41,543 nt of DNA, from positions 1-41,543 of the forward strand of contig CAIOXL010000160.1 of the NCBI GenBank assembly GCA_903862245.1, in the 5' to 3' direction. A program made the translations under genes and the position numbers. The stretch comes from an uncultured Geobacteraceae bacterium. Lineage in GTDB: Bacteria > Desulfobacterota > Desulfuromonadia > Geobacterales > Pseudopelobacteraceae. Under the pieces are notes generated by a model. It was not told the DNA's origin. It searched no databases and was given only the letters and a program-made list of their open reading frames with translations. Positions 6,493 to 24,484 of this stretch are shown here, piece by piece (position 1 is the first letter of the stretch; every line of letters starts with the position of its first letter).

Positions 6493-7920
6493 ATGCCTGA
6501 GCGAACCGCATGTGTTTTGGTGGTTGATGATGAGGAGGAAATCCGGAAGATCCTGACCCAGCTTCTGGAAAAAGAGGGGTTGCGGGTTGTTACCGCCCCG
6601 GACGGCCTGCAGGCCATGCGGCAGATTTGCATGGAGGCTCCGGATCTCGTCCTGCTGGATGTGCGCATGCCGGGGCTTGGCGGTTTGGAAGTACTTAAAA
6701 AAATAAAGGCGATCGATGATGATCTGCCGGTGGTGCTCATCACGGCATACACCGACATCCGCCAGGCCGTTGAAGTGATGAAGGGGGGCGCCTATGATTA
6801 TATGGCCAAGCCGTTTGATAACAACGAGGTGGTCTGGCTTGTGCGCCGGGCGCTGGCGGAAGGGCTGTTAAAGAAAAAACTGAAAAACATGACCGACCAG
6901 TATCACGGGAACTTCAGCCTTGTGGAGAGCATGGGGCCAAGCGATGAAATTGCCCGGCTCGCCGGAGACGTCCACCGGGTGGCAAAGTCAGACCTGTCGG
7001 TGGTCATTACGGGGGAAACCGGATCAGGAAAGGAACTCGTCGCACGGGCCATTCACGGGGACAGCGCCAGAGCGGCGGCCCCTTTCATGGCGGTTGATTG
7101 CGGCGCCATCCCGGAAAACCTGCTGGAAAGTGAACTTTTCGGCCATGAAAAGGGCTCCTTCACCGGGGCTGACCGGCAGAAAATCGGCAAGTTCGAACTG
7201 GCCCACGGCGGCACACTTTTTATGGACGAAATCGGCAACATGTCCGCCGGCTCCCAGGCAAAGTTTCTCCGGGTGCTTCAGGACCGGAAACTCAACCGGG
7301 TGGGAGGAACCAAACCGGTGGATGTGGATATCCGCCTCATTGTGGCAACCAATGAGGATCTTCAGCTGATGTCGGAAAACGGTACCTTCCGGAAGGATTT
7401 CTACTACCGCCTGAGTGAATTCACCATTCAGGTCCCACCGCTCCGGAACCGCAAGGAAGATATACCGTACCTCGCCAAGCGCTTTCTCGATCTGGCCAAC
7501 ATTGAACTGAAAAAAATGATCACCGCCTTCACCGTTGAAGCGCTGGAGCTGCTGGTGGTCTACGACTGGCCCGGCAATGTGCGCCAGCTCCGCTCGGTCA
7601 TCCGGCGGGCGGCACTGGTGGCCGGCGACACCATCACCTCCGATGACCTCAGCATCAAACAGGCTGCCGCACCGGGCATTGCGTTTTCTCCGAAAGTGGA
7701 AGGAACGCCATGGAAAAACGCCACGCTGAGCGAGATAGTCAGCCAGAGCGTGCAGTTGGTGGAAAAAGAAGTGCTTACGGCGGTGCTCAAGTTTACCGGC
7801 GGCAACAAAGCCAGGGCAGCCAGACTGCTGCAGGTCGATTACAAGACCATGCATACCAAGGCAAAAAAATTCGGTATTCAGCAGATCGGAGGAGACAATG
7901 ACGACGAAACGCACAACTGA
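6493..7920 (+). CDS. NtrC-family sigma-54 response regulator, predicted activator of gas vesicle genes
   Basis: The 475-residue product has the three NtrC domains. The receiver covers about 1-120 (LLDVRMPG with the phospho-acceptor Asp; Lys in MAKPFD). The AAA+ sigma-54 interaction domain covers about 140-375 (Walker A GETGSGKELVAR, Walker B FMDEIGNM). A Fis-type helix-turn-helix lies at the C-terminus (NKARAARLLQVDYKTMHTKA). The loop that contacts sigma-54 reads GSFTGA instead of the commoner GAFTGA, a conservative change that occurs in active activators. The stop lies 23 bp inside the next gene, gvpH, so the two are coupled. Matching palindromic sites precede both this gene and gvpA, so I infer that it controls gas vesicle expression. 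From memory, NtrC-type regulators (GvrA/GvrC) also sit in the Serratia ATCC 39006 gas vesicle cluster. Confidence 0.85.
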   Translation: MPERTACVLVVDDEEEIRKILTQLLEKEGLRVVTAPDGLQAMRQICMEAPDLVLLDVRMPGLGGLEVLKKIKAIDDDLPVVLITAYTDIRQAVEVMKGGAYDYMAKPFDNNEVVWLVRRALAEGLLKKKLKNMTDQYHGNFSLVESMGPSDEIARLAGDVHRVAKSDLSVVITGETGSGKELVARAIHGDSARAAAPFMAVDCGAIPENLLESELFGHEKGSFTGADRQKIGKFELAHGGTLFMDEIGNMSAGSQAKFLRVLQDRKLNRVGGTKPVDVDIRLIVATNEDLQLMSENGTFRKDFYYRLSEFTIQVPPLRNRKEDIPYLAKRFLDLANIELKKMITAFTVEALELLVVYDWPGNVRQLRSVIRRAALVAGDTITSDDLSIKQAAAPGIAFSPKVEGTPWKNATLSEIVSQSVQLVEKEVLTAVLKFTGGNKARAARLLQVDYKTMHTKAKKFGIQQIGGDNDDETHN

Positions 7921-8578
7921 CGGAAAAAAAACGGACGATGATCAGAGCGATGGTGTGGCGGGAATATTCAGCACCCTGTCCGGATTCATCAATAATTTAG
8001 GCGGCCTGACCAGTTCGGCGGAGCGGCTTGCCAAACAGCAGGGGGAACGGAAAGAATCGCAGAATGAAAACAGCGGGGCCGAAAGCAAGCTCAGCCGCAT
8101 TCTCAGCGGCTTGACCGAAATTGCGGAAAAGCTCAACGAGGTTTCGGAAAAGGGTGAGACCGTTTCCAAAACCGGAGAATTCACCTTTCCCTCCAAAGAG
8201 GGGGGCACCAGGGGGGTGTACGGCTTCAGCCTGAAAACCGGCATCGGCGGCAAAGACGACCAGGTCCGGGTCGAACCGTTCGGCAATATCCGCAAAGACA
8301 GTAAAACCGGAGCCGTGGTAGTTCAGGAAATTCATGAGCCGCTCGTCGATCTGTTTGAAGACCAGGACGCCACCACCCTGATTGCGGAAATGCCCGGCGT
8401 CGGTGCCGACGATATCAAACTTGAAGTACAGGACGACGTGCTGACCGTATCGGCGGCAAAGGGTGAGAAGAAATACCGGAAGGAGATTCTGCTCAGCCAC
8501 ACCGTCACCCGGGAAAAAACCACCGTCACCTGCAACAACGGCATCGTCACCATCCGCTGCGAAAAGGCACGGCCATGA
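7898..8578 (+). CDS. gvpH: Gas vesicle protein GvpH, Hsp20/alpha-crystallin type
   Basis: The 226-residue product has a long polar N-terminal half rich in Lys, Glu, Ser and Gly, with no recognisable fold. The alpha-crystallin domain covers about residues 145-226; characteristic stretches are LIAEMPGVGADDIKLEV and GIVTIRCEK at the very end. The C-terminal IxI anchor of ordinary Hsp20 proteins is missing because the chain stops right after the last strand. In halophilic archaea GvpH is an Hsp20-like accessory protein that works with GvpI and influences gas vesicle assembly. The position between the regulator and a Cdc48-like ATPase, and the 4-bp overlap (ATGA) with that ATPase, support a holding role for aggregation-prone vesicle proteins. 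That role is inferred. Confidence 0.8.
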   Translation: MTTKRTTDGKKTDDDQSDGVAGIFSTLSGFINNLGGLTSSAERLAKQQGERKESQNENSGAESKLSRILSGLTEIAEKLNEVSEKGETVSKTGEFTFPSKEGGTRGVYGFSLKTGIGGKDDQVRVEPFGNIRKDSKTGAVVVQEIHEPLVDLFEDQDATTLIAEMPGVGADDIKLEVQDDVLTVSAAKGEKKYRKEILLSHTVTREKTTVTCNNGIVTIRCEKARP

Positions 8579-10710
8579 AAGAACCAGAAAAAACCGGCAT
8601 CAGGCTGAAAGTAAGCGAAGCACTGACCAAGGATGTGGGACGCGCCCTGGCCCGCATGGGACCGGAAGACCTGGAGCGCCTGCAGGCGGCGATCGGCGAT
8701 ACGGTGATGGTGGAGGGCAAGCGGAAAGCCATCTGCAAAGTCATGCCGGCCTATATGGAGATTCGCGGTCAGTCGCGGGTCCAGTTGGACGGCCTGACCC
8801 GTGAGAATGCCGGCGTCGGTCTGGACGAAACGGTGCAGATCAGCACCGTAAAATGCCGGCCGGCGGAGCGGATTGTCCTGACGCCGACCAATGTCACCCC
8901 GGCGGAACGTGATCTCAAGTACATCGGGAGCCTGCTGGACGGACTGGCGGTCCTGGAGGGGGCCAAGATTCAGGCGGCCCTGTTCGGCAGCCGCGCCGCC
9001 TTCTTCAAGGTGGCATCCGTATCACCCAAGGGGCCGGTCATCATCAACCCCGCCACGATCCTCGTCATCGGCAAACCACAGGGAGAAGAGGAAACGGGAC
9101 GAACCCTCGCCTATGAAGATATCGGCGGCTTGAAATCCCAGCTGCAGCGCATCCGGGAAATGATTGAACTGCCGCTGCGCTATCCGGAGGTTTTCGAACG
9201 GCTCGGCATCGATGCACCGAAGGGCGTCCTCCTCTACGGCCCCCCGGGATGCGGAAAAACCCTCATTGCCCGTGCCATCGCCCACGAAACCGAGGCCAAC
9301 TTCTTTTCCGTCAGCGGTCCGGAGATCATCCACAAGTTTTACGGCGAAAGCGAAGCGCACCTCCGGAAGATTTTTGAAGAAGCATCCCGCAAGGGGCCGA
9401 GCATCCTGTTCCTTGATGAGATTGACGCCATCGCCCCCCGCCGCGACAACGTGGTCGGCGATGTGGAAAAGCGGGTTGTGGCCCAGCTTCTTGCCCTCAT
9501 GGACGGCCTGAACAAACGACAGAACGTCATCGTCATCGCCGCCACCAACCTGCCGAACGCCCTTGACCCCGCCCTGCGGCGTCCGGGACGATTCGACCGC
9601 GAGATCGTCATTCCGATCCCGGACCGCTGCGGCCGCCTTGAAATACTTGAAATTCACAGCCGGGGGATGCCGTTGGCCGAAGATGTCCGGATGGAGCACC
9701 TGGCGGAGATCACCCACGGCTTCGTCGGAGCGGATCTGGAAGCGCTCTGCCGGGAAGCGGCCATGAGCTGTCTGCGCCAGATCATGGGTGAGATTGATTT
9801 CGGCCAGAGCGGGATTCCCTATGAAACCCTCGCCAAGCTGGAAATCCGCATGGACGACTTCCTCACCGCCCTGCGGGAAATTGAGCCGTCGGCCATCCGG
9901 GAAGTTTTTGTGGAATCACCGAACGTCCATTGGGAAGATGTGGGGGGACTCGCCTCACTGAAGGACCGCTTGATTGAAGCGGTGGAGTGGCCGCTCAAAT
10001 ATCCGCACCTCTTTGAAAAAGGGGGCGTCACACCGCCCAAGGGGATTCTGCTGGTCGGCCCGCCCGGCTGTGGCAAAACGATGCTGGCCAAGGCGATTGC
10101 CACGGAAAGCCATGTGAATTTCATCTCCGTCAAGGGACCGGCCCTCATGTCGAAATGGGTCGGCGATTCGGAAAAGGGGGTCCGTGAAATCTTTCACAAG
10201 GCGAAACAGGCGGCCCCCTGTATTATCTTTTTCGATGAGATCGACGCCCTGGTTCCGACCCGGAGTGCCGGTTCATCAGACTCCCATGTGTCCGAGCGGA
10301 TTTTGAGCCAGTTCCTGGCCGAATTCGACGGCATCGACGAACTCCGGGGAGTTCTTGTCCTGGGCGCGACCAATCGCCTGGACATGCTTGACGCAGCGGT
10401 CGTCAGACCGGGGCGTTTTGACGAAATCGTCCAGCTGACGGCACCGGACGAACAGGACCGGGAGGCCATTTTTGCCGTGCATCTCCGGAATAAGCCGGTC
10501 GCAAAAAAGGTGCAGGCCGCCGATCTGGCCCGGAAAGCCGATGGCTTCAGCGGAGCGGACATCGCCGCTGTCGTGCGCATGTCAGCCATGACTGCCGTGC
10601 GCCGCGCGGTCGCCGCCATGAAAAAAACCGGCGGGGAGGAACCGGCCATCCTCATCCAGTTGCAGGACATTGAGCAGGCCATCCTGGATGTGCGCGGGAG
10701 AATGGCGTGA
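8575..10710 (+). CDS. VAT/Cdc48-like double AAA+ ATPase embedded in the gas vesicle operon
   Basis: The 711-residue product has a Cdc48-type N-domain (about 1-185) and two AAA+ modules. D1 has Walker A GPPGCGKT near residue 222, Walker B ILFLDEIDAIAP and arginine fingers in LRRPGRFDREI. D2 has Walker A GPPGCGKT near 495, Walker B IIFFDEIDALVP and VVRPGRFDE. Both pore loops carry aromatic residues (KFYGESE and KWVGDSE). That is the pattern of archaeal VAT, whereas eukaryotic p97 D1 lacks the aromatic, so an active threading unfoldase is expected. The C-terminus has no HbYX proteasome-docking motif. The gene overlaps gvpH upstream and a gvpF/L gene downstream (GTGA), so it belongs to the gas vesicle operon. 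I infer that it remodels or dismantles Gvp complexes; general protein quality control is the alternative. Confidence 0.88.
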   Translation: MKEPEKTGIRLKVSEALTKDVGRALARMGPEDLERLQAAIGDTVMVEGKRKAICKVMPAYMEIRGQSRVQLDGLTRENAGVGLDETVQISTVKCRPAERIVLTPTNVTPAERDLKYIGSLLDGLAVLEGAKIQAALFGSRAAFFKVASVSPKGPVIINPATILVIGKPQGEEETGRTLAYEDIGGLKSQLQRIREMIELPLRYPEVFERLGIDAPKGVLLYGPPGCGKTLIARAIAHETEANFFSVSGPEIIHKFYGESEAHLRKIFEEASRKGPSILFLDEIDAIAPRRDNVVGDVEKRVVAQLLALMDGLNKRQNVIVIAATNLPNALDPALRRPGRFDREIVIPIPDRCGRLEILEIHSRGMPLAEDVRMEHLAEITHGFVGADLEALCREAAMSCLRQIMGEIDFGQSGIPYETLAKLEIRMDDFLTALREIEPSAIREVFVESPNVHWEDVGGLASLKDRLIEAVEWPLKYPHLFEKGGVTPPKGILLVGPPGCGKTMLAKAIATESHVNFISVKGPALMSKWVGDSEKGVREIFHKAKQAAPCIIFFDEIDALVPTRSAGSSDSHVSERILSQFLAEFDGIDELRGVLVLGATNRLDMLDAAVVRPGRFDEIVQLTAPDEQDREAIFAVHLRNKPVAKKVQAADLARKADGFSGADIAAVVRMSAMTAVRRAVAAMKKTGGEEPAILIQLQDIEQAILDVRGRMA

Positions 10711-11495
10711 CCCCGGGAGTCTACCTTTTTTGCCTGGCTCCCGCCTCGCCATCTCCGGAGATTGCCGGAGTCGGCATCGACGGGGAACATCCGCTTTTTG
10801 TCCAGGTGATCGGCGCGGTGGCGGCTGTTATGGCGACGGTTGATCTGGATGACTTCTCCGGCCCGGCAGCCCAGGCAAAAATCACCGATCTGGCGTGGGT
10901 GGCACCCCGGGCGCTCCGTCATGAAGAGGTCGTCCTGGCGGTCATGGCACGGGGACCGGTGCTGCCGGTCCGTTTCAACACAGTTTTTTCCTCCCTGGCG
11001 GCGGCGGTGGCACCACTGCAGCAGCGCCAGGAACTGCTGAGCGCATTTTTCAGGGAGACAGCCGACACCCAGGAATGGATTGTCAAGGCGTATGTCAACC
11101 TCCCCCAGGCCCGCGCCCGGCTGACGGCGGCCCGTCTGGAGGCGGAAAAAGAACAGCTGGCAGGACTCGCTCCCGGTAAACGGTATTTTTTCGAACAGAA
11201 AATAAAGGGGATCGTGGAGAAGGACACCTCGTCCTGGCTCAGGGGGGTCAGCGCGGAGCTTGAGGCACTTGCCCTCGGTGCATCTGCACAGTTTTCCCGA
11301 TGCCGGGTCCAGTCACGGGAGGTCACCGGACGGGAGGAGGAGATGTTTTTCCACGGCGCACTCCTGGTGGCGGAACGTTCTGTGGGGGAGTTGGAAGCGG
11401 CGGTGGCCGCGTGGAACCGGGAGCAGGAACCAGAGGGACTCCAGATGGAGCTTTCCGGCCCCTGGCCCCCGTATCACTTCGCCCCGGCGTTGTAG
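10707..11495 (+). CDS. Gas vesicle protein of the GvpF/GvpL family, copy 1
   Basis: The 262-residue product begins GVYLFCLAP and ends in the family-typical C-terminal segment ELSGPWPPYHFAPAL. In between lie the conserved HEEVVLAVMARGPVLPVRFNTVF region of GvpF/L and a charged helical stretch (about 95-165). GvpF/L proteins are two-domain accessory proteins that bind GvpA and are needed for nucleation and growth of the vesicle. The start is GTG, overlapping the stop of the AAA+ ATPase. This is the most divergent of three GvpF/L paralogues in the cluster. Sequence alone does not tell F from L, so I give no symbol. Confidence 0.85.
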   Translation: MTPGVYLFCLAPASPSPEIAGVGIDGEHPLFVQVIGAVAAVMATVDLDDFSGPAAQAKITDLAWVAPRALRHEEVVLAVMARGPVLPVRFNTVFSSLAAAVAPLQQRQELLSAFFRETADTQEWIVKAYVNLPQARARLTAARLEAEKEQLAGLAPGKRYFFEQKIKGIVEKDTSSWLRGVSAELEALALGASAQFSRCRVQSREVTGREEEMFFHGALLVAERSVGELEAAVAAWNREQEPEGLQMELSGPWPPYHFAPAL

Positions 11496-11505
11496 GAAAC
11501 CGATT

Positions 11506-12261
11506 ATGGCATATCTGTTATACGGCATTATAAGCGGGTCGGCAGGGCTGGAATGGCACGAGGCCCTGACCGGCATGAAAAACAGGCCGGTGCAGTTTGT
11601 TGCCGCCCATGGCCTCTGCGCCGCACTGTCCGAACTGGAGGTGGAAGTGGGTGCGCCGCCGGTTGCTGACCTGCTCGCCTATGCCCGGGCTGTGGAAGCG
11701 CTCCACCAGCACCAAACCGTCATCCCCATGAGGTACGGCTGTTACCTGAACGGGATTCCGGCGGTACAGGATCTGCTGAGGGAGAAACAGCGACAGTATG
11801 GGGCTCTCCTTGCGGAGCTGGAAGGGCGGGTTGAAATGGGGGTCAGGATTTCTCTCCCGGAAAACGGCTCCGGCGAAAACGTCCCCGACCCTCCGGTTGA
11901 CGCAACGTGTGACGGGCGCTCTTATCTTACGCTCCGGAAAGCCCACTACCGTACGCAGGAAGCCGTCACCCGGGATCGCCAGGCGTGCAGCGACCGCTAT
12001 GTACAGGCGTTTGCCGGGGTATCCGCTAGACAGCGCACCGAAACAGCCGTAAAAAACGGCGTCCTCACCCTCTCCCTCTATTTTCTGGTGGCCGGGGAGA
12101 ACGTCAGCCGCTTCCGGGAAATCTTCGGGGAGCTGACAACAGGGCGAACCGACACCGCCACGCTCACCGGCCCCTGGCCGCCATACAATTTTGTCACCGC
12201 CGACAGCGGTAAATTCGGGGAGTCGCTCTCCAGTCACCTCCACTCCGCTCTTTCGTTGTAA
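11506..12261 (+). CDS. Gas vesicle protein of the GvpF/GvpL family, copy 2
   Basis: The 251-residue product starts MAYLLYGII and contains the family segment HQTVIPMRYGCYL near residues 70-82. A charged middle includes YLTLRKAHYRTQ, and the C-terminal signature LTGPWPPYNFV is followed by an extra ~20-residue tail. The chosen ATG at 11506 lies 10 bp after the stop of the previous gvpF/L gene; the frame is open much further upstream, but that part is antisense-like noise inside the preceding gene. GvpF/L family members act as assembly factors that bind the shell protein GvpA. The gene ends the first gvp block; an inverted-repeat element and two kinase genes separate it from the gvpA block. Confidence 0.85.
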   Translation: MAYLLYGIISGSAGLEWHEALTGMKNRPVQFVAAHGLCAALSELEVEVGAPPVADLLAYARAVEALHQHQTVIPMRYGCYLNGIPAVQDLLREKQRQYGALLAELEGRVEMGVRISLPENGSGENVPDPPVDATCDGRSYLTLRKAHYRTQEAVTRDRQACSDRYVQAFAGVSARQRTETAVKNGVLTLSLYFLVAGENVSRFREIFGELTTGRTDTATLTGPWPPYNFVTADSGKFGESLSSHLHSALSL

Positions 12262-12434: not shown

Positions 12435-12482
12435 TCAAATGCTTTTTCTAGGGTGGATACTCAGTGACGGCAAAGGATGCTG

Positions 12483-13979
12483 ATGAAAAATAAAACCGAA
12501 ATTGCAGCAGATCTGGAGCTTTCGGGACGCTACGAGCAGCTGTACTCCATGCTGCTGGATGCGATCCCCTCTTCAGTCCTCCTGATCGACCAGAACATGC
12601 GCATCGTTTCGGCCAATCGCAATTTTCTCGAAAAGGGGCTCCGAACGCTCTCAAACACCATCGGCTACAAACTGGAAGAGGTGTTCCCGACCATCATCCT
12701 TGACCAGATGGATATCACCAAGCGTATCCGGCAGGTCATCGAAAAGAACCAGCCCTCCAAGGGGGAGCGCATGACGTACCGCGCCCCCGGAGTGCCGATC
12801 CGGATTTATTACTACAGCATCCTCCCCTTCACTTGGCATGGCCGGGTTGAAGGGGCGGTCCTTCTCATGGATGACGTGACGGAGCAGGTGCGCCTGAGCG
12901 AAGAGGTGCAGCGGGTGGAGCGGCACCTGGCAAGCATCGTGGAGAGCGCCAGCGACCTTATTCTCTCCATGGACAAAAAGGGGATGATTTTGACGTGGAA
13001 CGCCGCTGCGGAACGAATTTCCGGCTACAGTGCGGCGGCGGTGCGGGATCGTTTTTTCACCGAATTCTGCATCGACGAAGACCGACAGGATATCCGGAAC
13101 ATTTTATCCCGCATCGACTCGAGCAGCTACGCCCAGACGGAAGAGTGCCCCCTGCGCACCAGTAAAGGGGCATCCATTCCGGTTTCCTGGGCTTTTTCCC
13201 CCATGAAGGACAGCAACAACCAGACGGCGGGGGTCGTGGCTGTCGGCAGGGATTTGACGGAAAAACGAAAGTTCGAGACGGAGCTGCACCAATCCCAGAA
13301 ATTTGCCGCCTTGGGAGTCATGGCGGGGGGAATCGCCCATGAGATCAGAAATCCTCTGGCCATCTGTTCATCCAGCGCCCAGTTTCTGCTGGAAGAGGAA
13401 GGCACGCCGGAATTTCGCCGTGAGTGTGCAGACAAAATTCACAAAGGGATCCAGAGGACCTCGCTCATCATCGAGAACCTCCTCAAATATTCCCACCCCT
13501 CGACCACAACCCGGAAGACCCTGGTCAACCTTGCCTCCCTGATCAGGGAAACCCAGACGCTGGTCGCCTACCACGCAAATATTCTCAAGATCGAAATCAC
13601 CGCCTCCTTCCCGCCCGAACCGGTCATGGTGACCGGGGTCGCCACACTGCTGCAGCAGGTGTTCATGAACCTCTTCCTGAACGCCATCAACGCCATGCCG
13701 AGTGGCGGACGCATGGGGATCAACGTGGAACGGGTTCACTCCGAGGTCAGGATTCAGGTTACGGACACCGGCTGCGGCATCTCCCCCCGGGAAATCGGGA
13801 AAGTGTTCGATCCGTTCTACACAACATCCATCGTGGGACAGGGGACCGGCCTCGGCCTGTCACTCTGCTATTCCATCGTCAAGCAGCATCAGGGCACCAT
13901 TACCGTGGAGAGCACGGAAGGACGGGGCAGCGTTTTTACACTGCTGCTGCCGGCCCGTTTCGGGGGGAGTGACGCGTGA
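12483..13979 (+). CDS. Soluble PAS-PAS histidine kinase A of the gas vesicle region
   Basis: The product is about 498 residues with no membrane helix. Two PAS domains (about 15-135 and 145-265) precede HisKA (LGVMAGGIAHEIRNPLAI) and HATPase_c (FLNAINAMP, DTGCGISP, GTGLGLSLCYSIV), an NtrB-like catalytic core. I prefer the ATG at 12483 because AAAGG is correctly spaced before it; an in-frame ATG two codons upstream is too close to that site. The catalytic half is nearly a duplicate of the kinase that follows, with long identical stretches such as SLIRETQTLVAYHAN. It overlaps the next kinase by 4 bp (GTGA). Possible partners are the lone receiver at 16543 and the sigma-54 regulator at 6493. Confidence 0.87.
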   Translation: MKNKTEIAADLELSGRYEQLYSMLLDAIPSSVLLIDQNMRIVSANRNFLEKGLRTLSNTIGYKLEEVFPTIILDQMDITKRIRQVIEKNQPSKGERMTYRAPGVPIRIYYYSILPFTWHGRVEGAVLLMDDVTEQVRLSEEVQRVERHLASIVESASDLILSMDKKGMILTWNAAAERISGYSAAAVRDRFFTEFCIDEDRQDIRNILSRIDSSSYAQTEECPLRTSKGASIPVSWAFSPMKDSNNQTAGVVAVGRDLTEKRKFETELHQSQKFAALGVMAGGIAHEIRNPLAICSSSAQFLLEEEGTPEFRRECADKIHKGIQRTSLIIENLLKYSHPSTTTRKTLVNLASLIRETQTLVAYHANILKIEITASFPPEPVMVTGVATLLQQVFMNLFLNAINAMPSGGRMGINVERVHSEVRIQVTDTGCGISPREIGKVFDPFYTTSIVGQGTGLGLSLCYSIVKQHQGTITVESTEGRGSVFTLLLPARFGGSDA

Positions 13980-17070: not shown

Positions 17071-17086
17071 TGGCATGTATTTCGCT
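17071..17086 (+). promoter_or_regulatory. Sigma-54 promoter of gvpA
   Basis: TTGGCAT GTATTT CGCT carries the GG (17072-17073) N10 GC (17084-17085) signature of a -24/-12 promoter. Transcription would start near 17097, leaving a ~63-base leader before gvpA. The enhancer-like compound site upstream supports the call. Confidence 0.65.
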
Positions 17087-17475: not shown

Positions 17476-18285
17476 ATGGGCAATTTAACTGATGATATGA
17501 CACGGTTGCGCAGTGAAGTTAACGCATTACGGAGTGATCGCGGAACGTTGATGCAGGAGTTGGCGAAAAGCGCCCAGGAACTGGCTGCTACGGTTGCCGG
17601 TATGCAGGCCGATTTTGCCGACGCCCGCAGCGCCATGGCACAGCGCAGCGGCCGGGAGCGGCAGGCCTTTGTGGCGGCAGTGGCCGCAGAGGTGAATGTT
17701 CTGCTGAGCACCTTCTCTCAGAATCGCGCCGCCATGGCGAAAACCGGGAGTGCTGAGCGGGGAGCCTTTTGTGCAGAATTAAAAAAAGAGGTTCTGGACA
17801 TCCGCAAAGGTATGGCGGACGACATGCATGGAGCGCGGCGTGTCTGGCGCGGCCAAACCTTCAAGACGCCGGTGACCGTTCAGGTGAAGAAACGGACGGA
17901 GGGTGCCGTTGTGGTACCGCCACAGGCGGCAGTCGTGCCGGTCGCAAAAAAGCAGGCTGTGGCAAAAGCCGCCCCGGTACAGGTTGCAAAAGCAAAACCG
18001 GTTGCTCCGGTTAAGGCAGTTGCTCCGGTTAAAGCAGCCGCTCCGCTTAAAGCAGTTGCTCCGGTTAAAGCAGTTGCTCCGGTTAAAGCAGTTGCTCCGG
18101 CTAAAGCAGCCGCTCCGGTTACGGCAGCCGCTCCGGTTACGGCAATTGTTCCGCTTACGGCAGTTGTGCCAGATAAGCCGGTTGCACCGGTTGTCGCGGT
18201 TAAACCGGTTGTCCCGGTTGCAGCGCCAGCAACGCCAGCAGCACCGGCAAAACAGGCAAAAAAAGGGAAGCGGAGCGGCAAGTAG
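17476..18285 (+). CDS. GvpC-like protein with 33-residue repeats and a long Ala-Pro-Val-Lys tail
   Basis: The ATG at 17476 follows GAGGGGGA; the product is 269 residues. Residues about 15-110 are helical and repeat with an exact 33-residue period: the segments FADARSAMAQ...ERQAF and FSQNRAAMAK...ERGAF align without gaps, and a degenerate copy flanks them on each side. This is the repeat length of cyanobacterial GvpC, the outer-surface protein that stiffens the vesicle. Several positions match the cyanobacterial consensus as I remember it (Arg at 9, Ala at 11, 13 and 22, Phe at 23, Glu-Leu at 26-27). The remaining ~150 residues are low-complexity APVKAV-type repeats ending KKGKRSGK. Position directly after gvpA is that of gvpC in cyanobacteria. 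I am fairly confident of a surface or scaffold role but not of direct homology. Confidence 0.6.
   Translation: MGNLTDDMTRLRSEVNALRSDRGTLMQELAKSAQELAATVAGMQADFADARSAMAQRSGRERQAFVAAVAAEVNVLLSTFSQNRAAMAKTGSAERGAFCAELKKEVLDIRKGMADDMHGARRVWRGQTFKTPVTVQVKKRTEGAVVVPPQAAVVPVAKKQAVAKAAPVQVAKAKPVAPVKAVAPVKAAAPLKAVAPVKAVAPVKAVAPAKAAAPVTAAAPVTAIVPLTAVVPDKPVAPVVAVKPVVPVAAPATPAAPAKQAKKGKRSGK
18001..18180 (+). repeat. 18-bp coding minisatellite in the gvpC-like gene
   Basis: About ten head-to-tail 18-base units of the form GTTGCTCCGGTTAAAGCA encode the six-residue repeat VAPVKA. Units 2, 4 and 5 are identical; the others differ by a few bases. Because 18 is a multiple of three, gain or loss of units changes the tail length without breaking the frame. 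Confidence 0.85.
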
Positions 18286-18383: not shown

Positions 18384-19382
18384 ATGAGTAAGAATTCCGT
18401 AAAAATCGTCAGCTCATCAACCGTGCGCGAACAGGTCGGGGAAGACAGTGTACACCCGGAGCCAAGCGACAGCTTTATCTCTTCTCCCCAGGTGGAGCAG
18501 GTCACGCAGCGGGCTTTGGCCTATCTGGTAGCCGGCTATCCGGTCCATTTTTCCGGCGTGGCTGGCACGGGAAAAACCACCATGGCCTTTCACCTGGCGT
18601 CTAAACTGGGACGGCCGGTCACCCTGGTTCACGGGGATGACGAATTCGGCAGTTCCGATCTGGTCGGCAAGGATTCGGGATACCGGAAAAGCAAACTGGT
18701 GGACAATTATATCCACTCGGTTCTGAAGACCGAAGAGGAGATGAAAAGCCTCTGGGTAGCCAACCGTTTGACCACCGCCTGCGAACGCGGCGAGATTCTT
18801 ATTTATGACGAGTTCAACAGATCCCGCCCGGAAGCCAACAACGCGCTGCTCAGTGTTCTTTCCGAAGGAATTTTGAACCTGCCGAACATGCGTCGTTCCG
18901 GTGAAGGGTACATGGCGGTGCATCCGGAATTCCGGGCGATCTTCACCTCCAACCCGGAGGAGTATGCCGGAACCCACAAAACCCAGGACGCACTGATGGA
19001 CCGCCTGATCACTATCCAGCTGGATCACTATGACCGGGATACGGAGATCATGATCGTTATGAAAAAATCCGGACTCACCCGGATGGATTCGGAACTGATC
19101 GTTGATATCGTACGGGAACTACGGAGCTTCGGAGTAAACAATAACCGTCCGACCATTCGTGCGGGTGTTGCCATCGCCAAGATCCTCGCTTCCCAGAAAC
19201 GGCGTGTCCAGGGAGATGATATCTTCTTCCAGATGATCTGCCGGGATGTCCTGTCAACGGACACCGCCAAGATCACCCGGGGCGGCCAGCCGGTCATGAC
19301 CCAGAAGGTGGAGGAAGTTATCCGTAAATACTGCGGCAGCGGGAAGCCGGCCAGGGAGAAAGCCAAAGAGGTCAGCCCATGA
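18384..19382 (+). CDS. gvpN: Gas vesicle AAA+ ATPase GvpN
   Basis: The 332-residue product is a MoxR-type AAA+ protein with Walker A GVAGTGKTT near residues 59-67, Walker B ILIYDEFNRSRPE near 140, sensor-1 type AIFTSNPEEYAGTHK, and an arginine-bearing MDRLITIQLDHYDRD segment. This arrangement is specific to GvpN. GvpN hydrolyses ATP and is needed for vesicles to grow to full width; it works near the GvpA/GvpC surface. The length is usual for the family, with a polar N-terminal extension of ~35 residues. A ribosome site (GGGGAG) precedes the ATG. The stop overlaps the next gene by 4 bp (ATGA). Confidence 0.95.
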   Translation: MSKNSVKIVSSSTVREQVGEDSVHPEPSDSFISSPQVEQVTQRALAYLVAGYPVHFSGVAGTGKTTMAFHLASKLGRPVTLVHGDDEFGSSDLVGKDSGYRKSKLVDNYIHSVLKTEEEMKSLWVANRLTTACERGEILIYDEFNRSRPEANNALLSVLSEGILNLPNMRRSGEGYMAVHPEFRAIFTSNPEEYAGTHKTQDALMDRLITIQLDHYDRDTEIMIVMKKSGLTRMDSELIVDIVRELRSFGVNNNRPTIRAGVAIAKILASQKRRVQGDDIFFQMICRDVLSTDTAKITRGGQPVMTQKVEEVIRKYCGSGKPAREKAKEVSP

Positions 19383-19699
19383 CAAAAAGAATCATGAGGG
19401 GTGTGCAGGATATCAAGACCCATTCCGGCCGGGCAGACGAGGGCGCAATTCCGTACAAAGCCTATATGAAGCTCAGCATTCTCGAAATGGAAAAGTTCCG
19501 CCGGGGTAAGGAAAAACAGAACGCGCTGGAAAAGATTGTTCAGATTGACCAGCGTTTCCGGGATATCGAAGCGGAGCGGCAGGAGATCATCGCCTCACTG
19601 GAAGCCCAGGGGATACGGGGCCAGCGCCTGCCGGACTATAACGATCCTTCCACGGTAGCCGCACCGCGCGCAACAGGTGCGTTCAAGTTCAAATACTGA
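19379..19699 (+). CDS. Small charged helical protein of unknown function in the gas vesicle operon
   Basis: The 106-residue product starts on an ATGA overlap with gvpN, so it is almost certainly translated with it. Residues about 28-80 are predicted by eye to form a long charged helix or coiled coil (MKLSILEMEKFRRGKEKQ and QRFRDIEAERQEIIASLEAQ). The C-terminal 25 residues are Pro/Gly-rich and end in FKFKY. It has no membrane segment and no cysteines. I do not recognise a named family. Coupling to gvpN suggests a vesicle-specific accessory role, for example an adaptor or regulator of GvpN, but this is inference only. Confidence 0.7.
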   Translation: MTKRIMRGVQDIKTHSGRADEGAIPYKAYMKLSILEMEKFRRGKEKQNALEKIVQIDQRFRDIEAERQEIIASLEAQGIRGQRLPDYNDPSTVAAPRATGAFKFKY

Positions 19700-19708
19700 G
19701 GTGCCGAT

Positions 19709-19936
19709 ATGCTGACCGTTCATGATTCACACCACATTGCAACACATCGCTGCGTAGCCGGCCACCGGGCCTGCCGGTCACTTACCGGTTTCCCCCTGGG
19801 TGCCGGTGAAGCGCGCCGCGTTACCCATGAAAGTATCGCCCTTGTGAACCGGCGCCTCCGCTTTGCCTGGCTGATCGCACAATGGAGACGGCACGAGAAC
19901 AGCGTAAAAAGCCGAAGAGCAGCGGTACGGGGCTGA
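19709..19936 (+). CDS. Hypothetical small basic protein, doubtful gene
   Basis: The 75-residue frame begins 9 bp after the previous stop with a GAGGTG site before its ATG. Codon choice in the middle (ALVNRRLRFAWLIAQWRRHE) looks like real coding. The product is rich in Arg and His and has no recognisable family or motif. It lies in the direction and line of the gvp operon. It may be a genuine small gene or chance; 19937-19996 holds only the ribosome site of the next gene. Confidence 0.4.
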   Translation: MLTVHDSHHIATHRCVAGHRACRSLTGFPLGAGEARRVTHESIALVNRRLRFAWLIAQWRRHENSVKSRRAAVRG

Positions 19937-19996: not shown

Positions 19997-20170
19997 ATGA
20001 AGATCAACTGTCTGTCCTGCGGCCACACCATTGACCTTGATGACGCCTACAGCGATTACGAAGGGCAGGTCAAGTGTTATACATGCAGCGCCCTGCTGGA
20101 GATAAAACTGGAAGACAGCTGCATCAAGGCTGTCAGATTCGTCAAGACGACACGTGGTGCGGCTGAATAG
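19997..20170 (+). CDS. 57-residue zinc-ribbon protein in the gas vesicle operon
   Basis: A short gene with a strong ribosome site (GAGGAGG six bases before the ATG). The product MKINCLSCGHTIDLDD... carries CLSC at residues 5-8 and CYTC at 27-30, a standard four-cysteine zinc ribbon with a ~18-residue spacing, followed by a small strand-rich end (ALLEIKLEDSCIKAVRFVK). This is the size of a stand-alone rubredoxin-like or zinc-ribbon module. It sits between the gvpN-linked genes and gvpF/L, all in one direction. No enzymatic residues are visible; a binding or scaffold role is likeliest. I know of no named Gvp protein with this structure. Confidence 0.75.
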   Translation: MKINCLSCGHTIDLDDAYSDYEGQVKCYTCSALLEIKLEDSCIKAVRFVKTTRGAAE

Positions 20171-20236: not shown

Positions 20237-20998
20237 ATGGACGGCAAGGAAATAAAAAACGGAAGAAAATATCTTTATGCCGTCATCCCGGCAACAGGGG
20301 AACAGGAGTACGGCAATATAGGCATCGACGGAGAGAATGTATATCTCATCACTGACAATCAGGTCGCCGCAGTGGTCAGTGATTACGGCGCGGGGAAAAT
20401 CCGCCCGGAACGGCGTCATATCGCAGCGCACCAGGCTGTTCTGAAACGCCTTATGGAGGACGAGACACCGCTGCCGATCACATTTGGTGTCATGGCCGAA
20501 GGGGCCAAAGAGATCAAACGGATCCTGTCGCTCAACCGTAAAACGTTTACCGAGCAACTGCACCGTGTTCATGGCAAAGTGGAGATGGGACTGCGTGTTG
20601 CGTGGGATGTGCCGAATATTTTTGAATATTTTGTCAATACACACGCAGATCTCCGGAGTGCCAGAGACCAGTTCATGGGTAACAGCCGGGTACCGAGCCA
20701 GGAAGACAAGATTGAGGTCGGGCGTCTATTTGACCGGGTTCTCCAGGAAGACCGGGAAGAGCATACCGACCGGGTGGAAACGATCCTGTCGCCCGCCTGT
20801 TTTGAAATCAAGCGGAACGTGCCCCGGACCGAACGGGACGTCATGAATCTGGCCTGCCTGGTCAGCCGGGATGCGGTAGACAAGGATTTTGAGGCGGCCA
20901 TATTCGAAGCGGCACGCGGTTTCGACAACAACTTTTCTTTCGATTTTAACGGACCATGGGCGCCGCACAATTTTGTGGACGTTGAGCTTCGTTTCTAA
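20237..20998 (+). CDS. gvpF: Gas vesicle protein of the GvpF/GvpL family, copy 3
   Basis: The 253-residue product is the most canonical of the three GvpF/L paralogues. It begins KYLYAVIPATGEQ and has the conserved HQAVLKRLMEDETPLPITFGVM segment (about 75-97). The HGKVEMGLRVAWD region follows at about 112-125, and the chain ends with FNGPWAPHNFVDVELRF. GvpF binds GvpA and is part of the minimal assembly set. The ATG follows AAAGGGGA. It lies next to gvpG, as in many bacterial gvp clusters, which is why I assign F rather than L; that choice is tentative. Confidence 0.88.
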   Translation: MDGKEIKNGRKYLYAVIPATGEQEYGNIGIDGENVYLITDNQVAAVVSDYGAGKIRPERRHIAAHQAVLKRLMEDETPLPITFGVMAEGAKEIKRILSLNRKTFTEQLHRVHGKVEMGLRVAWDVPNIFEYFVNTHADLRSARDQFMGNSRVPSQEDKIEVGRLFDRVLQEDREEHTDRVETILSPACFEIKRNVPRTERDVMNLACLVSRDAVDKDFEAAIFEAARGFDNNFSFDFNGPWAPHNFVDVELRF

Positions 20999-21049: not shown

Positions 21050-21298
21050 ATGTTCCTGGTTGATGATATTCTCATGTCGCCTGCGCGCGGCCTTTACTGG
21101 GTTTTCAAGGAAATCTGCCGCGCGGCCGAGGAAGATCAGGCCGGCGAGGCCGACTCCATAACGACCAAACTCAGTGAGCTCTACATGATGCTGGAGACCG
21201 GGATGATGACGGAGGCGGAATTCGACGCCGAAGAAAAGATTCTGCTCGATCGCCTTGATGTAATCAGGGGCGATGCCGGAGATGATGAGGATGAGTAG
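21050..21298 (+). CDS. gvpG: Gas vesicle protein GvpG
   Basis: The 82-residue product matches GvpG: a hydrophobic N-terminus MFLVDDILMSPARGLYWVFK followed by EICRAAEEDQ, and a helical acidic half (LSELYMMLETGMMTEAEFDA) ending in an Asp/Glu tail. GvpG is a small accessory protein in the minimal set for assembly and is thought to work with GvpF/L. The gene lies between gvpF/L and the ArsA-like ATPase gene in the usual accessory block. The ribosome site is poor, which may mean low-level translation. Confidence 0.92.
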   Translation: MFLVDDILMSPARGLYWVFKEICRAAEEDQAGEADSITTKLSELYMMLETGMMTEAEFDAEEKILLDRLDVIRGDAGDDEDE

Positions 21299-21354: not shown

Positions 21355-23316
21355 ATGAAATCCTCCGGTACGACTCCTTTTTTCTTATCTGAAGCGGGCC
21401 TCCGGCTTTTGCTGTTCGGCGGCAAGGGGGGGGTGGGGAAAACCACCGCCTCGGCAGCTACCGCTCTGGAATGTGCCCGCCGCTATCCGGAGAGCACTCT
21501 GCTGCTCGTCTCAACCGACCCTGCCCACTCTCTTTTTGACAGCTTTGCCGGAGCCTCCATCCCGGAAAACATCCGGATTCTGGAGCTGGATTCCCGTGCC
21601 TGTCTCCACGCATTTCAGGAAAAAAACCGGCAGCGATTGAGCGAAATTGCTGCCCGGGGAACGTTTCTCGACGCAGACGATATCAACCGGTTTCTGGAAC
21701 TGTCCCTGCCGGGCATGGATGAACTCATGGCTTTTCTGGAGATCAGCCGCTGGGTCCGGGAACGGACCTATGACCGGATCATCATGGATACGGCCCCGAC
21801 GGGGCATACCCTCCGCCTCATGGAAATGCCGGACATGATCCGCAAGTGGCTGGAGGCGCTGGACACGCTCCTGGCCAAAAACAGGTACATGAAAAAACTT
21901 TTCCGGGGGAGTTACGAGCAGGACGACCTTGATGAGTTCATTGGGGATCTCGCACTCTCTGTCAAAGAGATGGAAACACTGCTTAAAGATCACCAACAGT
22001 GCCGGTTCGTTCCGGTCATGCTGGCGGAACCGTTGAGCGTTGAGGAAACGCGGGATCTGATCCGGGAATTGCGGCACCTCCGCATCGGTGTTGCAGACGT
22101 GGTCATCAACCGCCTCTACCCGGAGAGTCCCTGCCCGGTCTGCAGGAGTATTCATGACCGGCAGCAGGGTGAACTGGCCCGCCTCTTCACCGATCCCGGC
22201 TTCGCCCGCCTCAGGTTCTGGGGGGTACCGATGCATCCCGAGGAACTACGGGGACTTGAGTCACTGTGCACCTTCTGGGATGGACTGGAGGAAGTAACCG
22301 TCCCCTCCGGAGCGCCCCGGTCTCTCCTGCCGGCACAACCGGGACGCGTGGATGCCCCCGCTCCTCTGCCGGCACCTGACATGGCGCTGCTCGTATTCGC
22401 AGGCAAGGGAGGAGTCGGCAAAACGACCGTGGCGTGTGCCACGGCGCTGCATCTGGCCCGCACCTGCCCCGAAAAACGGATACTCCTGTTTTCAGCGGAT
22501 CCTGCACATTCCCTGGCCGACTGCCTTGACCTGCCGCTCGGCCCGCACCCGGTTCAGGTTGCCCCCGGTGTATGGGCCATGGAAATGAACGCAACCGCCG
22601 ACTTTGTGACCCTGAAGAATCTGTACCGGAAAGAGCTGGCGCAGTTTTTTTCCCAATTGATGCCGAATCTTGATCTGACCTTTGACCGTGAAGTCATGGA
22701 ACGGATCATGGATCTGTCCCCCCCCGGAATCGACGAGTTGATGGCCCTGACGGCGGTGATGGATATCATGACCATTGAGGGGTACGACCTGCTGGTTCTT
22801 GACGCGGCGCCGACCGGCCATCTGATCAGATTATTGGAATTGCCGAATATCATCGAAGAGTGGCTGAAGGTGTTTTTCAGTCTCTTCCTGAAGTACCGGA
22901 ACGTATTCCGGCTCCCCGGCGTTTCCGGTCGTCTGGTCCGGTTATCCAAAGATCTGAAACGCCTGCGGGCACTCCTGTGTGATCCGGCCCGCACCGCCCT
23001 CTACGCCGTCAGCATCCTTACGGAAATGTCTTTCGAGGAGACCAGGGATCTGGCAGCCGCCTGCAGTCGCCTGCACGTTCCGGTTGCCGGGCTGTTTCTG
23101 AATATGGCAACGCCGGACGGGACGGACCCGCTCTGCCGCTCGGTGTATAAACGGGAAACCGCCGTGCGGAGTAAATTCGACCGGGATTTTCCCGCCATCA
23201 ACCGGACGGTGGTGTATCGCCAGGGAGACCTCCGGGGAGAAAAACAACTCGCCTCTCTGGGACAGCTCCTGTTCCATCCGTTACACAGCGCTGCGGCGGG
23301 AAACCGGGCGGCGTGA
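21355..23316 (+). CDS. Fused tandem ArsA/Get3-type ATPase in the gas vesicle operon
   Basis: The 653-residue product is two ArsA/Get3 ATPase halves in one chain. Half 1 has P-loop GGKGGVGKTT (22-31), STDPAHSLFD and DTAPTGHTLRL. Half 2, after a Pro/Ala linker around 325-342, has GKGGVGKTT (350-358), SADPAHSLAD and DAAPTGHLIRL. Half 1 keeps a CPVC pair in SPCPVCRSIHDRQ, the position of the Get3 zinc cysteines, whereas half 2 has only one Cys in DPLCRSVYKRE. Get3 delivers hydrophobic tail-anchored proteins; ArsA powers arsenite export. No arsB, arsR or arsD is nearby, and gvpG and gvpS/J flank the gene, so I infer handling or targeting of hydrophobic Gvp subunits rather than arsenic resistance. 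Confidence 0.85.
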   Translation: MKSSGTTPFFLSEAGLRLLLFGGKGGVGKTTASAATALECARRYPESTLLLVSTDPAHSLFDSFAGASIPENIRILELDSRACLHAFQEKNRQRLSEIAARGTFLDADDINRFLELSLPGMDELMAFLEISRWVRERTYDRIIMDTAPTGHTLRLMEMPDMIRKWLEALDTLLAKNRYMKKLFRGSYEQDDLDEFIGDLALSVKEMETLLKDHQQCRFVPVMLAEPLSVEETRDLIRELRHLRIGVADVVINRLYPESPCPVCRSIHDRQQGELARLFTDPGFARLRFWGVPMHPEELRGLESLCTFWDGLEEVTVPSGAPRSLLPAQPGRVDAPAPLPAPDMALLVFAGKGGVGKTTVACATALHLARTCPEKRILLFSADPAHSLADCLDLPLGPHPVQVAPGVWAMEMNATADFVTLKNLYRKELAQFFSQLMPNLDLTFDREVMERIMDLSPPGIDELMALTAVMDIMTIEGYDLLVLDAAPTGHLIRLLELPNIIEEWLKVFFSLFLKYRNVFRLPGVSGRLVRLSKDLKRLRALLCDPARTALYAVSILTEMSFEETRDLAAACSRLHVPVAGLFLNMATPDGTDPLCRSVYKRETAVRSKFDRDFPAINRTVVYRQGDLRGEKQLASLGQLLFHPLHSAAAGNRAA

Positions 23317-23373: not shown

Positions 23374-23565
23374 ATGCCCGATGAACTGAGTGAAAGTGAA
23401 CATATCAGCCTGTGCGAGGTTCTGGACCGGATTCTCAATAAAGGGGCCGTAATTGTCGGCGATGTCATGATTTCGGTGGCCGATATCGACCTCATCTACC
23501 TTGGCCTGCAGGTCATCCTGACTTCGGTGGAAACAGCACGGCGCGAGGAGGGCTTGATCAAATGA
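23374..23565 (+). CDS. GvpA-related minor protein (GvpS/GvpJ type)
   Basis: The 63-residue product is a GvpA paralogue: SLCEVLDRILNKGAVIVGDV then MISVADIDLIYLGLQVILTS then VETARREEGLIK. The GvpA helix-strand-strand-helix core is kept, but the shell motif [15 protein letters not shown] is replaced by VGDVMISVADIDLIY, which is the signature of the GvpJ/GvpM/GvpS group. These minor proteins are thought to form the tips or to nucleate assembly. The length is close to GvpS. It overlaps gvpK by 4 bp (ATGA), so the two are made together. Confidence 0.85.
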   Translation: MPDELSESEHISLCEVLDRILNKGAVIVGDVMISVADIDLIYLGLQVILTSVETARREEGLIK

Positions 23566-23936
23566 ACACAGAGAACGGTCCCGAAACATACCACCCGTCA
23601 GGATCCGTTGTGGAATCCCCGGACGCGGGCGACTTCGCAAAAATCATGGCGGCGCAAAGCGCTCTTTCCCCCGCCCGGCGTTTGAACCTCGATGCCAATA
23701 AGACGAAAAATGCGCTGGCCCAGCTTGTGCTGACGGTGGTGAAACTCCTTCATGAACTGCTGGAAAAACAGGCCATTCGCCGGATTGACGGGGGGGGACT
23801 TACGGATGAGGAAATAGAACGCCTCGGTTTCACGTTGATGCGGCAGTCCGAGGAAATCACCAAAATTGCCCACGAATTCGGCCTCGAAAGTGACGATCTG
23901 AATCTGGACCTGGGACCTTTGGGGAAATTGTTGTAG
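23562..23936 (+). CDS. gvpK: Gas vesicle protein GvpK
   Basis: The 124-residue product has a variable polar start followed by the GvpK core: RLNLDANKTKNALAQLVLTV, VKLLHELLEKQAIRRIDGG, LTDEEIERLGFTLMRQSEEI and a C-terminal DLNLDLGPLGKLL. GvpK belongs to the minimal set needed for assembly and is helical and soluble. Its start codon overlaps the stop of the gvpS/J-like gene. A 212-bp structured spacer separates it from the last gvp gene. Confidence 0.95.
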   Translation: MNTENGPETYHPSGSVVESPDAGDFAKIMAAQSALSPARRLNLDANKTKNALAQLVLTVVKLLHELLEKQAIRRIDGGGLTDEEIERLGFTLMRQSEEITKIAHEFGLESDDLNLDLGPLGKLL

Positions 23937-23957: not shown

Positions 23958-24127
23958 CATCCGGAAACTCCGGATGAGCGACTGTTGGTTTCCGTAGCGG
24001 AAAGCGGGGATTTTTTCTCCCGGCAAGGAAATCAAGGAATTGCACGGAAGCGTACTTCGGTACGCCGCACACGTAAGGCCGCAGATTGACGCCGCGAGGG
24101 GGAAAAAGCGCCCTTTCCGGACGGAAA
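23958..24127. other. Structured intergenic segment inside the gvp operon
   Basis: The 212-bp gap after gvpK contains four clear hairpins. CATCCGGA AAC TCCGGATG lies at 23958-23976. TTTCCG TAG CGGAAA lies at 23989-24003. A UUCG-capped perfect stem GCGTAC TTCG GTACGC lies at 24050-24065. TTTCCG GA CGGAAA lies at 24114-24127. The TTTCCG/CGGAAA pair occurs at both ends of a ~139-bp stretch. No coding signal is convincing on either strand. It could be a dispersed repeat element or an mRNA processing or stability region. Confidence 0.4.
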
Positions 24128-24148
24128 CTAGATAAACGGGAGAAAAAA

Positions 24149-24484
24149 ATGGCTATCCAACGCGGTACGCAACATTCTCTGGGAAGTACGAATCTGGCGG
24201 ACCTGCTCGAAAGAATTCTGGACAAAGGCATCGTTATCGCCGGCGATATACGCATCAATCTGGTGGATGTGGAACTGCTGACTATCCAGATCCGCCTTGT
24301 TATCTGTTCCGTCGACAAGGCAAAGGAGATGGGCATGGACTGGTGGGTCAACAACCCCTCCTTCTGCTCCGGCACAAAGAAACAGAATGCCCTGCCGGAT
24401 GTGATGGAGCGGCTTGAAGAACGTCTGGCCCGAATTGAGAGTTCCCTTGCCTCAGGGGTACCAGTCGGTAAACCGGCGAAGTAG
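24149..24484 (+). CDS. gvpJ: GvpJ-type minor gas vesicle protein
   Basis: The 111-residue product is a second GvpA paralogue. Its core reads [52 protein letters not shown], which is typical of GvpJ (the DKAKEMGMDWW end in particular). A ~45-residue hydrophilic C-terminal tail follows with a charged helix (MERLEERLARIESSL). GvpJ is an essential minor component, probably at the vesicle cap. The ATG follows GGGAG at suitable spacing; the frame is open upstream but non-conserved there. It is the last gene of the cluster, 119 bp before a bidirectional terminator. Confidence 0.92.
   Translation: MAIQRGTQHSLGSTNLADLLERILDKGIVIAGDIRINLVDVELLTIQIRLVICSVDKAKEMGMDWWVNNPSFCSGTKKQNALPDVMERLEERLARIESSLASGVPVGKPAK

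Follow-up and report, generated by a model that had tools for sequence, protein, structure and literature searches.

The stretch of DNA analysed here (the window) comprises positions 1 to 41,543, that is 41,543 nucleotides, of contig CAIOXL010000160.1 from an uncultured Geobacteraceae bacterium (assembly GCA_903862245.1). Scans of its open reading frames (ORFs) with Pfam and NCBIfam profiles revealed a complete gas-vesicle locus at positions 6493-24484, with all genes on the plus strand. Three candidate protein-handling factors are encoded among the vesicle genes: an Hsp20-type small heat-shock protein in the GvpH slot (7898-8578; PF00011 over its cut-off across 47 residues, NF041800 at 126 bits and under its cut-off of 140), a two-ring Cdc48-type AAA+ ATPase with an N-domain in the gvpZ slot (8575-10710; TIGR01243, 876 bits, over cut-off) and a tandem (fused) Get3/ArsA-family ATPase in the gvpW slot (21355-23316; PF02374, 375 bits in two stretches; TIGR00345, 364 bits, over cut-off). 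The core genes gvpA, gvpF/L, gvpG, gvpK, gvpJ/M type and gvpN were all present. GvpA, the main shell protein, is encoded at 17160-17378 (NF006874, 134 bits, over cut-off; the ATG at 17160 was read from the sequence), and the AAA+ ATPase GvpN at 18384-19382 (TIGR02640, 335 bits, over cut-off). Three GvpF/L family proteins matched PF06386, at 10707-11495 (157 bits), 20237-20998 (208 bits) and 11506-12261; for the last, the 137 bits were obtained on the longer mechanical ORF 11260-12261 and the ATG at 11506 was read from the sequence. GvpG (21050-21298; PF05120, 48 bits, over cut-off) and GvpK (23562-23936; PF05121, 110 bits) were accompanied by two minor proteins of the GvpA family (PF00741), one of GvpM/GvpS type (23374-23565; 61 bits; the best NCBIfam model was GvpM, under its cut-off) and one assigned to the GvpJ type by position, with an uncertain start (24086-24484; 63 bits). 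All genes named by the original prediction, which had been made from the sequence alone (Hsp20, the two-ring AAA+ ATPase, three GvpF/L, the tandem ArsA, gvpA, N, G, K and J-type genes), were recovered with profile matches, whereas its gene list for the span had omitted an NtrC-type activator, two kinases, a receiver, and the GvpC-like, GvpV-like and four-cysteine ORFs described below. The frequent 4-bp overlaps it had reported were found in six adjoining pairs: Hsp20/Cdc48, Cdc48/GvpF, kinase/kinase, kinase/receiver, GvpN/GvpV and GvpM/GvpK.

In Serratia sp. ATCC 39006, the gas-vesicle genes are arranged as gvpA1 C N V F1 G W A2 K X A3 Y / gvrA gvpH Z F2 F3 gvrB gvrC (PMC9501494). The shared slots occur in the same order in the window, including an NtrC-type GvrA and a sigma-54-like site before gvpA, and judged from sequence the window locus is a Serratia-type gas-vesicle locus. 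It differs from that of Serratia in forming one block with the regulatory genes first, in having an extra CHASE kinase and the four-cysteine ORF, and in lacking named counterparts of gvpX and gvpY. The gene arrangement is not due to chance, because the identical order recurs in many genomes. From gene order, GvpZ of Serratia would be a Cdc48-type protein and GvpW an ArsA-type protein.

The Cdc48-type protein of the window matched its curated model over the cut-off and consists of a CDC48_N domain followed by two AAA rings. In both rings, arginine fingers and aromatic pore loops accompany the Walker A and B motifs, and the best solved matches were the VCP-like ATPase entries 5g4f and 5g4g. The protein is predicted to be an unfoldase of the Cdc48/VAT kind. 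VAT, which we take to be the archaeal Cdc48-type unfoldase appropriate for comparison, and archaeal Cdc48 have the N-domain, the two AAA rings and the aromatic pore loops in common with it; unlike them, the window protein is bacterial and is encoded in a gvp operon, and no match to the protease family PF00227 was found in the source genome (assembly 92.65% complete). Since no 20S or HslV partner was found, this Cdc48 would unfold its substrates without help from a PF00227-type protease. Five cyanobacterial gvp forms are about 615 aa long, with about half of the N-domain missing. For both ATPases a single copy was found in the source genome, with no other Cdc48 over cut-off and no other full-length ArsA; besides the tandem ArsA, three further short PF02374 matches were present.

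For the tandem ATPase, TIGR00345 was over its cut-off and arsenical-pump models were under theirs. A Get3-type CxxC is present in the first half, for which many Get3 entries were among the PDB matches, and the second CxxC is degenerate. Among the 28 gvp-linked tandem proteins aligned, 25 had two P-loops (the other three were cut by contig ends); 20 had a CxxC in each half, two, including the window protein, had it in one half, and six had none. Cysteines 113, 172 and 422 of ArsA, which we take to be its metalloid (arsenite)-binding residues, were located by the alignment columns of a Comamonas plasmid arsenic ArsA and were absent in all 28. An arsenic role for the gvp ArsA was rejected on this ground and from the plasmid search given below, and the fused ArsA/Get3 reading of the original prediction agrees with the missing arsenite cysteines and the Get3-type CxxC. 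Furthermore, no arsB, acr3 or arsR family was found among the scanned window proteins, which were mainly those of the gvp span, as not every flanking ORF was scanned. P-loops and CxxC are common to this protein and Get3/TRC40, but the window protein carries two units in one chain, and no Get1/2 or membrane target is known for it. Among 72,556 plasmid records, only the Nostoc gvp plasmid matched the ArsA at 1e-30, whereas 2117 records did so at 1e-6. In Nodularia spumigena, the ArsA gene nsp15480 is numbered right after the gvp genes nsp15380-15470 and by its position may encode a gvp ArsA; it was listed among arsenate-related genes (PMC3610870).

The distribution of both ATPases followed that of the vesicle genes. 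In our sample of 395 genomes of the phylum, 36 carried gvpA. A match to the Cdc48 model at E <=1e-120 was obtained in 41 genomes, namely in 28/36 with gvpA and in 13/359 without it (Fisher p 6e-26). In the stretches read, Cdc48 and at least one gvp gene shared a contig in 23 of the 28, although for one of them (G006) the link depends on a 64-aa fragment lying where a contig ends; no shared contig was seen in G035, G150, G198, G286 and G354. The 13 Cdc48 loci of genomes without gvpA had no gvp gene in the stretches read. The plain ArsA family was common, with matches in 177/395 genomes at 1e-25, and therefore only a gvp-type profile separated ArsA by the presence of gvp. With such a profile, which was built from 17 gvp-linked proteins, leans towards gvp-linked rows and was applied at E <=1e-90, 22 of the 395 genomes were positive: 21/36 with gvpA and 1/359 without it (p 3e-24). 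The single gvpA-free genome among them (G137) belongs to the genus of a gvpA-positive genome, is 82% complete and has an Hsp20-like gene beside ArsA. Thus the outcome that the original prediction had named as speaking against it, namely ATPases just as common away from gas-vesicle genes, was clearly not observed for either ATPase.

Furthermore, phylogenetic trees pointed to separate gas-vesicle lineages. Rows shorter than 550 aa were left out of the Cdc48 trees. In the first of these, built from 68 proteins, the label gvp or non-gvp changed 5 times, compared with 15.5 times in shuffles, and 0/500 shuffles were as low. In this first tree, four proteins (L042, L047, L063 and L078) had been labelled gvp though their contigs had no core gvp gene, and that of L042 grouped with the unlinked ones. 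For a second tree, these four were left unlabelled and five long rows were dropped, two of which had carried the gvp label contrary to one clade (L025, around which no gvp gene was read, and L033, whose contig does carry gvp genes); the label then changed 3 times, compared with 12.8 in shuffles, again with 0/500 as low. The Cdc48 of G150, a gvpA-positive genome, grouped with unlinked ones. When the 45 gvp-linked rows were forced together, the likelihood was above that found by the free search (p-AU 0.685), indicating that a single origin of the gas-vesicle Cdc48 is compatible with the data, though not proved. The L033 gene (G102, contig C74, 1999-4182) is a second, divergent Cdc48-type gene, located behind gvpG, J, K and J type genes. 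The tree of ArsA units, made with a quick method and rooted at the midpoint, was based on 22 of the 28 tandem proteins, the remainder being truncated or nearly identical to others, and on 5 single-domain gvp forms. For comparison it included one arsenic ArsA, three tandem proteins of other kinds and the units of six housekeeping loci; ten such loci had been fetched, but four of them yielded none. The 49 gvp units formed one supported group, and within it the N halves formed one group and the C halves another, which suggests that the gvp tandem ATPase arose by a separate fusion of its own.

The gene neighbours gave a similar picture. Hsp20 was located immediately 5' of Cdc48 in 33/71 rows and ArsA in 8/71, while the 17 unlinked Cdc48 rows were all devoid of Hsp20, ArsA and gvp genes on the same strand over a distance of 600 bp. 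Chance or housekeeping neighbourhood was rejected for Cdc48, given these unlinked rows and its presence in only 13/359 genomes without gvpA. Immediately 5' of ArsA we found GvpG in 17/34 rows and Hsp20 in 9/34; immediately 3' of it were a GvpA-family gene in 17/34 and Cdc48 in 8/34. In the main arrangement, Cdc48 lies in the regulatory half, in the order NtrC-Hsp20-Cdc48-GvpF-GvpF-kinase. In other arrangements the factors stand together: Hsp20, a single-domain ArsA and Cdc48 adjoin as a trio in five loci (L052, L063, L116, L120 and L123), ArsA-Cdc48 pairs adjoin in three cyanobacterial loci and Hsp20-ArsA pairs in further loci. A scan beyond the phylum, with a GvpN alignment against one genome per species, yielded at least 50 loci. 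Among the matches listed, Cdc48 was found in 25 loci and ArsA in 15; 28 had at least one of the two ATPases and 22, many on short contigs, had neither. The 25 Cdc48 loci, again among the matches listed, spanned 11 phylum labels (Thermodesulfobacteriota, Acidobacteriota, Pseudomonadota, Actinomycetota, Planctomycetota, Chloroflexota, Nitrospinota, Saganbacteria, Bacillota, Lentisphaerota and Cyanobacteriota), although these labels may err since most of the genomes are metagenome bins. Two Halobacillus and several cyanobacterial gvp clusters had neither ATPase in the stretches read. GvpN was also found in 25 plasmid records (16 of Halobacterium), five regions of which were read with an incomplete annotated gene table. 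For example, the Methylosinus C49 plasmid has an annotated CDC48 family ATPase two genes after gvpH, the gvp region of a Nostoc sphaeroides plasmid has ArsA and then an AAA ATPase, and that of a Methylocella plasmid has Hsp20 and an AAA ATPase.

The analysis directly shows what the genes are, their catalytic motifs, their co-occurrence and neighbourhood, and the Get3-type cysteines. On balance we favour, with moderate confidence, the reading that this Serratia-type locus, probably driven by sigma-54 and NtrC, encodes proteostasis factors of its own that would serve the hydrophobic proteins of the GvpA family. That such parts would be dedicated to gas vesicles is well supported by co-occurrence and lineage. 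To this extent the dedicated protein-handling route of the original prediction was partly supported, with co-occurrence, lineages and neighbours in its favour; a single obligate route was not supported, because ArsA and Cdc48 vary independently inside gvp-positive genomes. We infer the route, its clients, the order of events and recovery over destruction from protein families and gene neighbours. In the proposed mechanism, Hsp20 would hold GvpM and GvpJ, the minor and hydrophobic paralogues of GvpA, and perhaps GvpA itself. In haloarchaea, GvpH prevents the aggregation of GvpM (PMC6107691). The tandem Get3-like ATPase, both halves of whose single chain would stand in for the Get3 homodimer, may deliver these two paralogues, and perhaps GvpA as well, to the site of assembly in an ATP-dependent manner. 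GvpF/L and GvpG would chaperone GvpA and GvpN would drive insertion at the growing shell; GvpF/G and GvpN were candidates for GvpA solubility and insertion in a 2024 interaction study (PMC11445434). Finally, subunits that have misassembled or aggregated may be threaded through the pores of the Cdc48-like ring, which would return them for another attempt.

Several observations weigh against this proteostasis reading. The best solved matches of the whole tandem chain were ARSA1 (5zme) and ArsA (9nbl), ahead of Get3 (2woo), and since these chains outscore Get3, 'Get3-like' is a reading from the cysteines and not from the overall score. Of the 36 gvpA-positive genomes, 17 had both ATPases, 11 only Cdc48, 5 only ArsA and 3 neither (one ArsA cut by a contig end, that of G201, was counted as present), indicating that ArsA and Cdc48 are independent inside gvp-positive genomes (odds ratio 0.93, p 1). 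In G300, a gvp cluster of otherwise usual order (L068) lacks Hsp20 and Cdc48, although this genome does have ArsA. For both reasons no part is indispensable, and an obligate three-part machine was rejected because of the independent variation of the two ATPases. The Cdc48 of L033, though on a gvp contig, grouped with unlinked Cdc48s, and the plasmid gvp clusters of Octadecabacter and Spartinivicinus listed neither ATPase in the incomplete gene table. Furthermore, gvpH, gvpZ and gvpW of Serratia were not required natively for vesicles (PMC4982088, PMC10344784), and a gvpH mutant showed no change in vesicle shape or stability (PMC4982088). The ultrasound signal in E. coli was lowered or abolished when gvpC, H, W, Y or Z was deleted (PMC10344784); the effect is not special to the H, Z and W slots, since gvpC and gvpY deletions act likewise.

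The independence of the two ATPases and the G300 cluster would also be expected if Hsp20, the Get3-like and the Cdc48-like protein were accessory factors that each act on a different Gvp protein or step and share an operon but no pathway. We regard this as unlikely though worth serious weight, as the trio in five loci, the ArsA-Cdc48 pairs in three cyanobacteria, the ArsA gene beside an AAA ATPase on the Nostoc plasmid and the further Hsp20-ArsA pairs all speak against it. A less probable alternative is that the Cdc48-like ring serves vesicle collapse or turnover, pulling GvpA or GvpC from the shell when buoyancy must fall. The full unfoldase motifs in both rings and the place of Cdc48 in the regulatory half would fit such a role, but loss of the gvpZ slot, matched by gene order, lowers the signal in E. 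coli, which is a loss of yield and not an excess of vesicles, and the same slot is dispensable natively in Serratia. Moreover, no partner protease of the PF00227 family was found in the source genome, and the sequence offers nothing in favour of disassembly. It is highly improbable that Hsp20 and the two ATPases hitch-hike in the operon as genes of general stress or arsenic response: the ArsA family is common in the phylum and the gvp-adjacent Nodularia gene was listed as arsenate-related, but the ATPases here belong to gvp-type lineages and not to general ones, the arsenite cysteines are missing from every gvp-linked tandem protein, and gvp-linked Cdc48 occurs, among the matches listed, under 11 phylum labels.

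Parts of the system had been described earlier, among others in a paper on ArsA proteins whose authors we take to be Castillo and Saier. That paper reported in 2010 two-domain ArsA proteins of about 640 aa in gvp operons, several of them with hsp20, including Geobacter uraniireducens, noted that ArsA homologues outside its cluster 1 were without the arsenite cysteines, and proposed, in general terms, that gvp ArsA energises a biogenic step (PMC2963123). The gvp ArsA proteins studied here share with its clusters 4 and 6 the two-domain form and the setting with gvp and hsp20; the word Cdc48 is absent from the available part of that paper, and the present analysis adds the Get3-type CxxC, the single-domain forms and a grouping made up of gvp proteins only. 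The statement in the original prediction that no experimental description of the set working as one system was known needs correction, as ArsA and Hsp20 had been described in gvp operons (PMC2963123) and deletion data exist for the syntenic gvpH, gvpZ and gvpW of Serratia, with slots matched by order (PMC4982088, PMC10344784). In the open-licence literature we did not find the gas-vesicle Cdc48 lineage or the Get3 reading, which does not prove that they have never been reported; one gas-vesicle paper mentions Cdc48d as an unspecifically bound protein. We regard the vesicle locus itself as known, and the gas-vesicle Cdc48 lineage and the fused Get3 lineage as apparently new.

How GvpA and its paralogues are kept soluble and inserted into the growing shell is an unsolved problem, for which the vesicle-tied Cdc48 and Get3-like lineages offer two further testable handles. 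With these two lineages, bacteria would also offer a case in which relatives of Cdc48 and Get3 are tied to a single organelle. The two ATPases could help to explain the weaker signal in a foreign host after removal of accessory genes, which is relevant to ultrasound reporter genes. It is conceivable, but in our opinion rather doubtful, that a bacterial organelle-specific proteostasis exists in a wider sense, in which Cdc48 and fused Get3 lineages evolved with the vesicle genes, move with them from phylum to phylum and join Hsp20 in holding, delivering and extracting GvpA-family subunits, including the remodelling or dismantling of the shell, without ubiquitin or proteasome.

The regulatory genes precede gvpA. 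An NtrC-type sigma-54 activator with a receiver domain is encoded at 6493-7920 in the slot of Serratia gvrA (Pfam Sigma54_activat, 226 bits; Response_reg, 112 bits). A PAS histidine kinase occupies the GvrB slot (12477-13979; HisKA and HATPase_c) and a single receiver-domain protein the GvrC slot (16543-16956; Response_reg, 78 bits). Between these two slots lies the extra CHASE-PAS histidine kinase (13976-16546; CHASE, 214 bits); relatives in this order mostly have one kinase. The two kinase genes share a 300-nt direct repeat of 79% identity. A sigma-54-like -24/-12 element is located at 17070-17086 on the plus strand, 90 bp 5' of the gvpA ATG, and agrees with 11/13 consensus positions. In Serratia, gvpA1 is under the control of GvrA and sigma-54 (PMC4982088). 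A scan of the window with the sigma-54 pattern gave 11 matches where 23 were expected by chance; this is not significant, and the promoter assignment therefore rests on position and recurrence. A score of at least 10/13 was reached in 22/68 gvpA upstream stretches (1 of the 22 from a duplicate genome), and such an element also precedes the first gvpA of contig C187 in the source genome. It was reached in 0/16 cyanobacterial gvpA upstream stretches, and the element was absent from the clusters of family f12 and from L050 and L068. The locus is probably switched on via sigma-54 and the NtrC-type activator.

Three further proteins are encoded near gvpN. The GvpC-like protein (17476-18285), in the slot between gvpA and gvpN, had no Pfam or NCBIfam profile match at 0.01. 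The self-similarity of 17 homologues peaked on average at a lag of 33, which was the best lag in 10/17, including that of the window; a repeat of 33 residues (33RR) is the repeat length named for GvpC (PMC7204071). At 17977-18210 of this gene, a run of 18-bp repeats encodes a Lys/Ala/Val/Pro-rich tail of the Lys-Ala-Val-Ala-Pro-Val type, and by eye no such tail was seen in the aligned homologues. The GvpV-like protein (19379-19699) follows gvpN as in Serratia. A C-terminal Tyr was invariant in 21/21 aligned rows (21 of 27 matches were aligned) and may perhaps be a docking tail; in addition, the GvpV-like profile gave weak matches of 23-35 bits in four cyanobacterial (Nostoc-type) gvp clusters. 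Between the GvpV and GvpF slots, a 57-aa ORF (19997-20170) with four invariant cysteines, resembling a zinc ribbon, was kept in the loci of the phylum (16 matches, 15 of them aligned). A 75-aa ORF at 19709-19936 has no family match; its place in the cluster is unexplained and it may be no gene.

Comparison with relatives indicated a possible insertion border of the locus at a tRNA-Pro gene (25072-25148, minus strand; ARAGORN). A genus mate that lacks gvpA has nadA immediately beside the tRNA, and two fragments of the window's left flank map to other places in it, the first about 100 kb away on that contig and the second on a different one; the locus therefore looks inserted near tRNA-Pro. The gvpA gene was absent from the sampled genomes of the same genus (1), family (4), order (3) and class (8), and since no sampled close relative has it, a horizontal gain of the gvp locus fits the data. 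The likely insertion spot is the stretch 24484-29257, from the end of the cluster past tRNA-Pro. Two minus-strand ORFs of 488 aa (26930-28396 and 25298-26764) adjoin the tRNA, one of them with a metallo-beta-lactamase-fold match and the other with none. The source genome also holds a second set, gvpA, a short GvpC-like gene and again gvpA, at about 860-1760 of contig C187 (L018).

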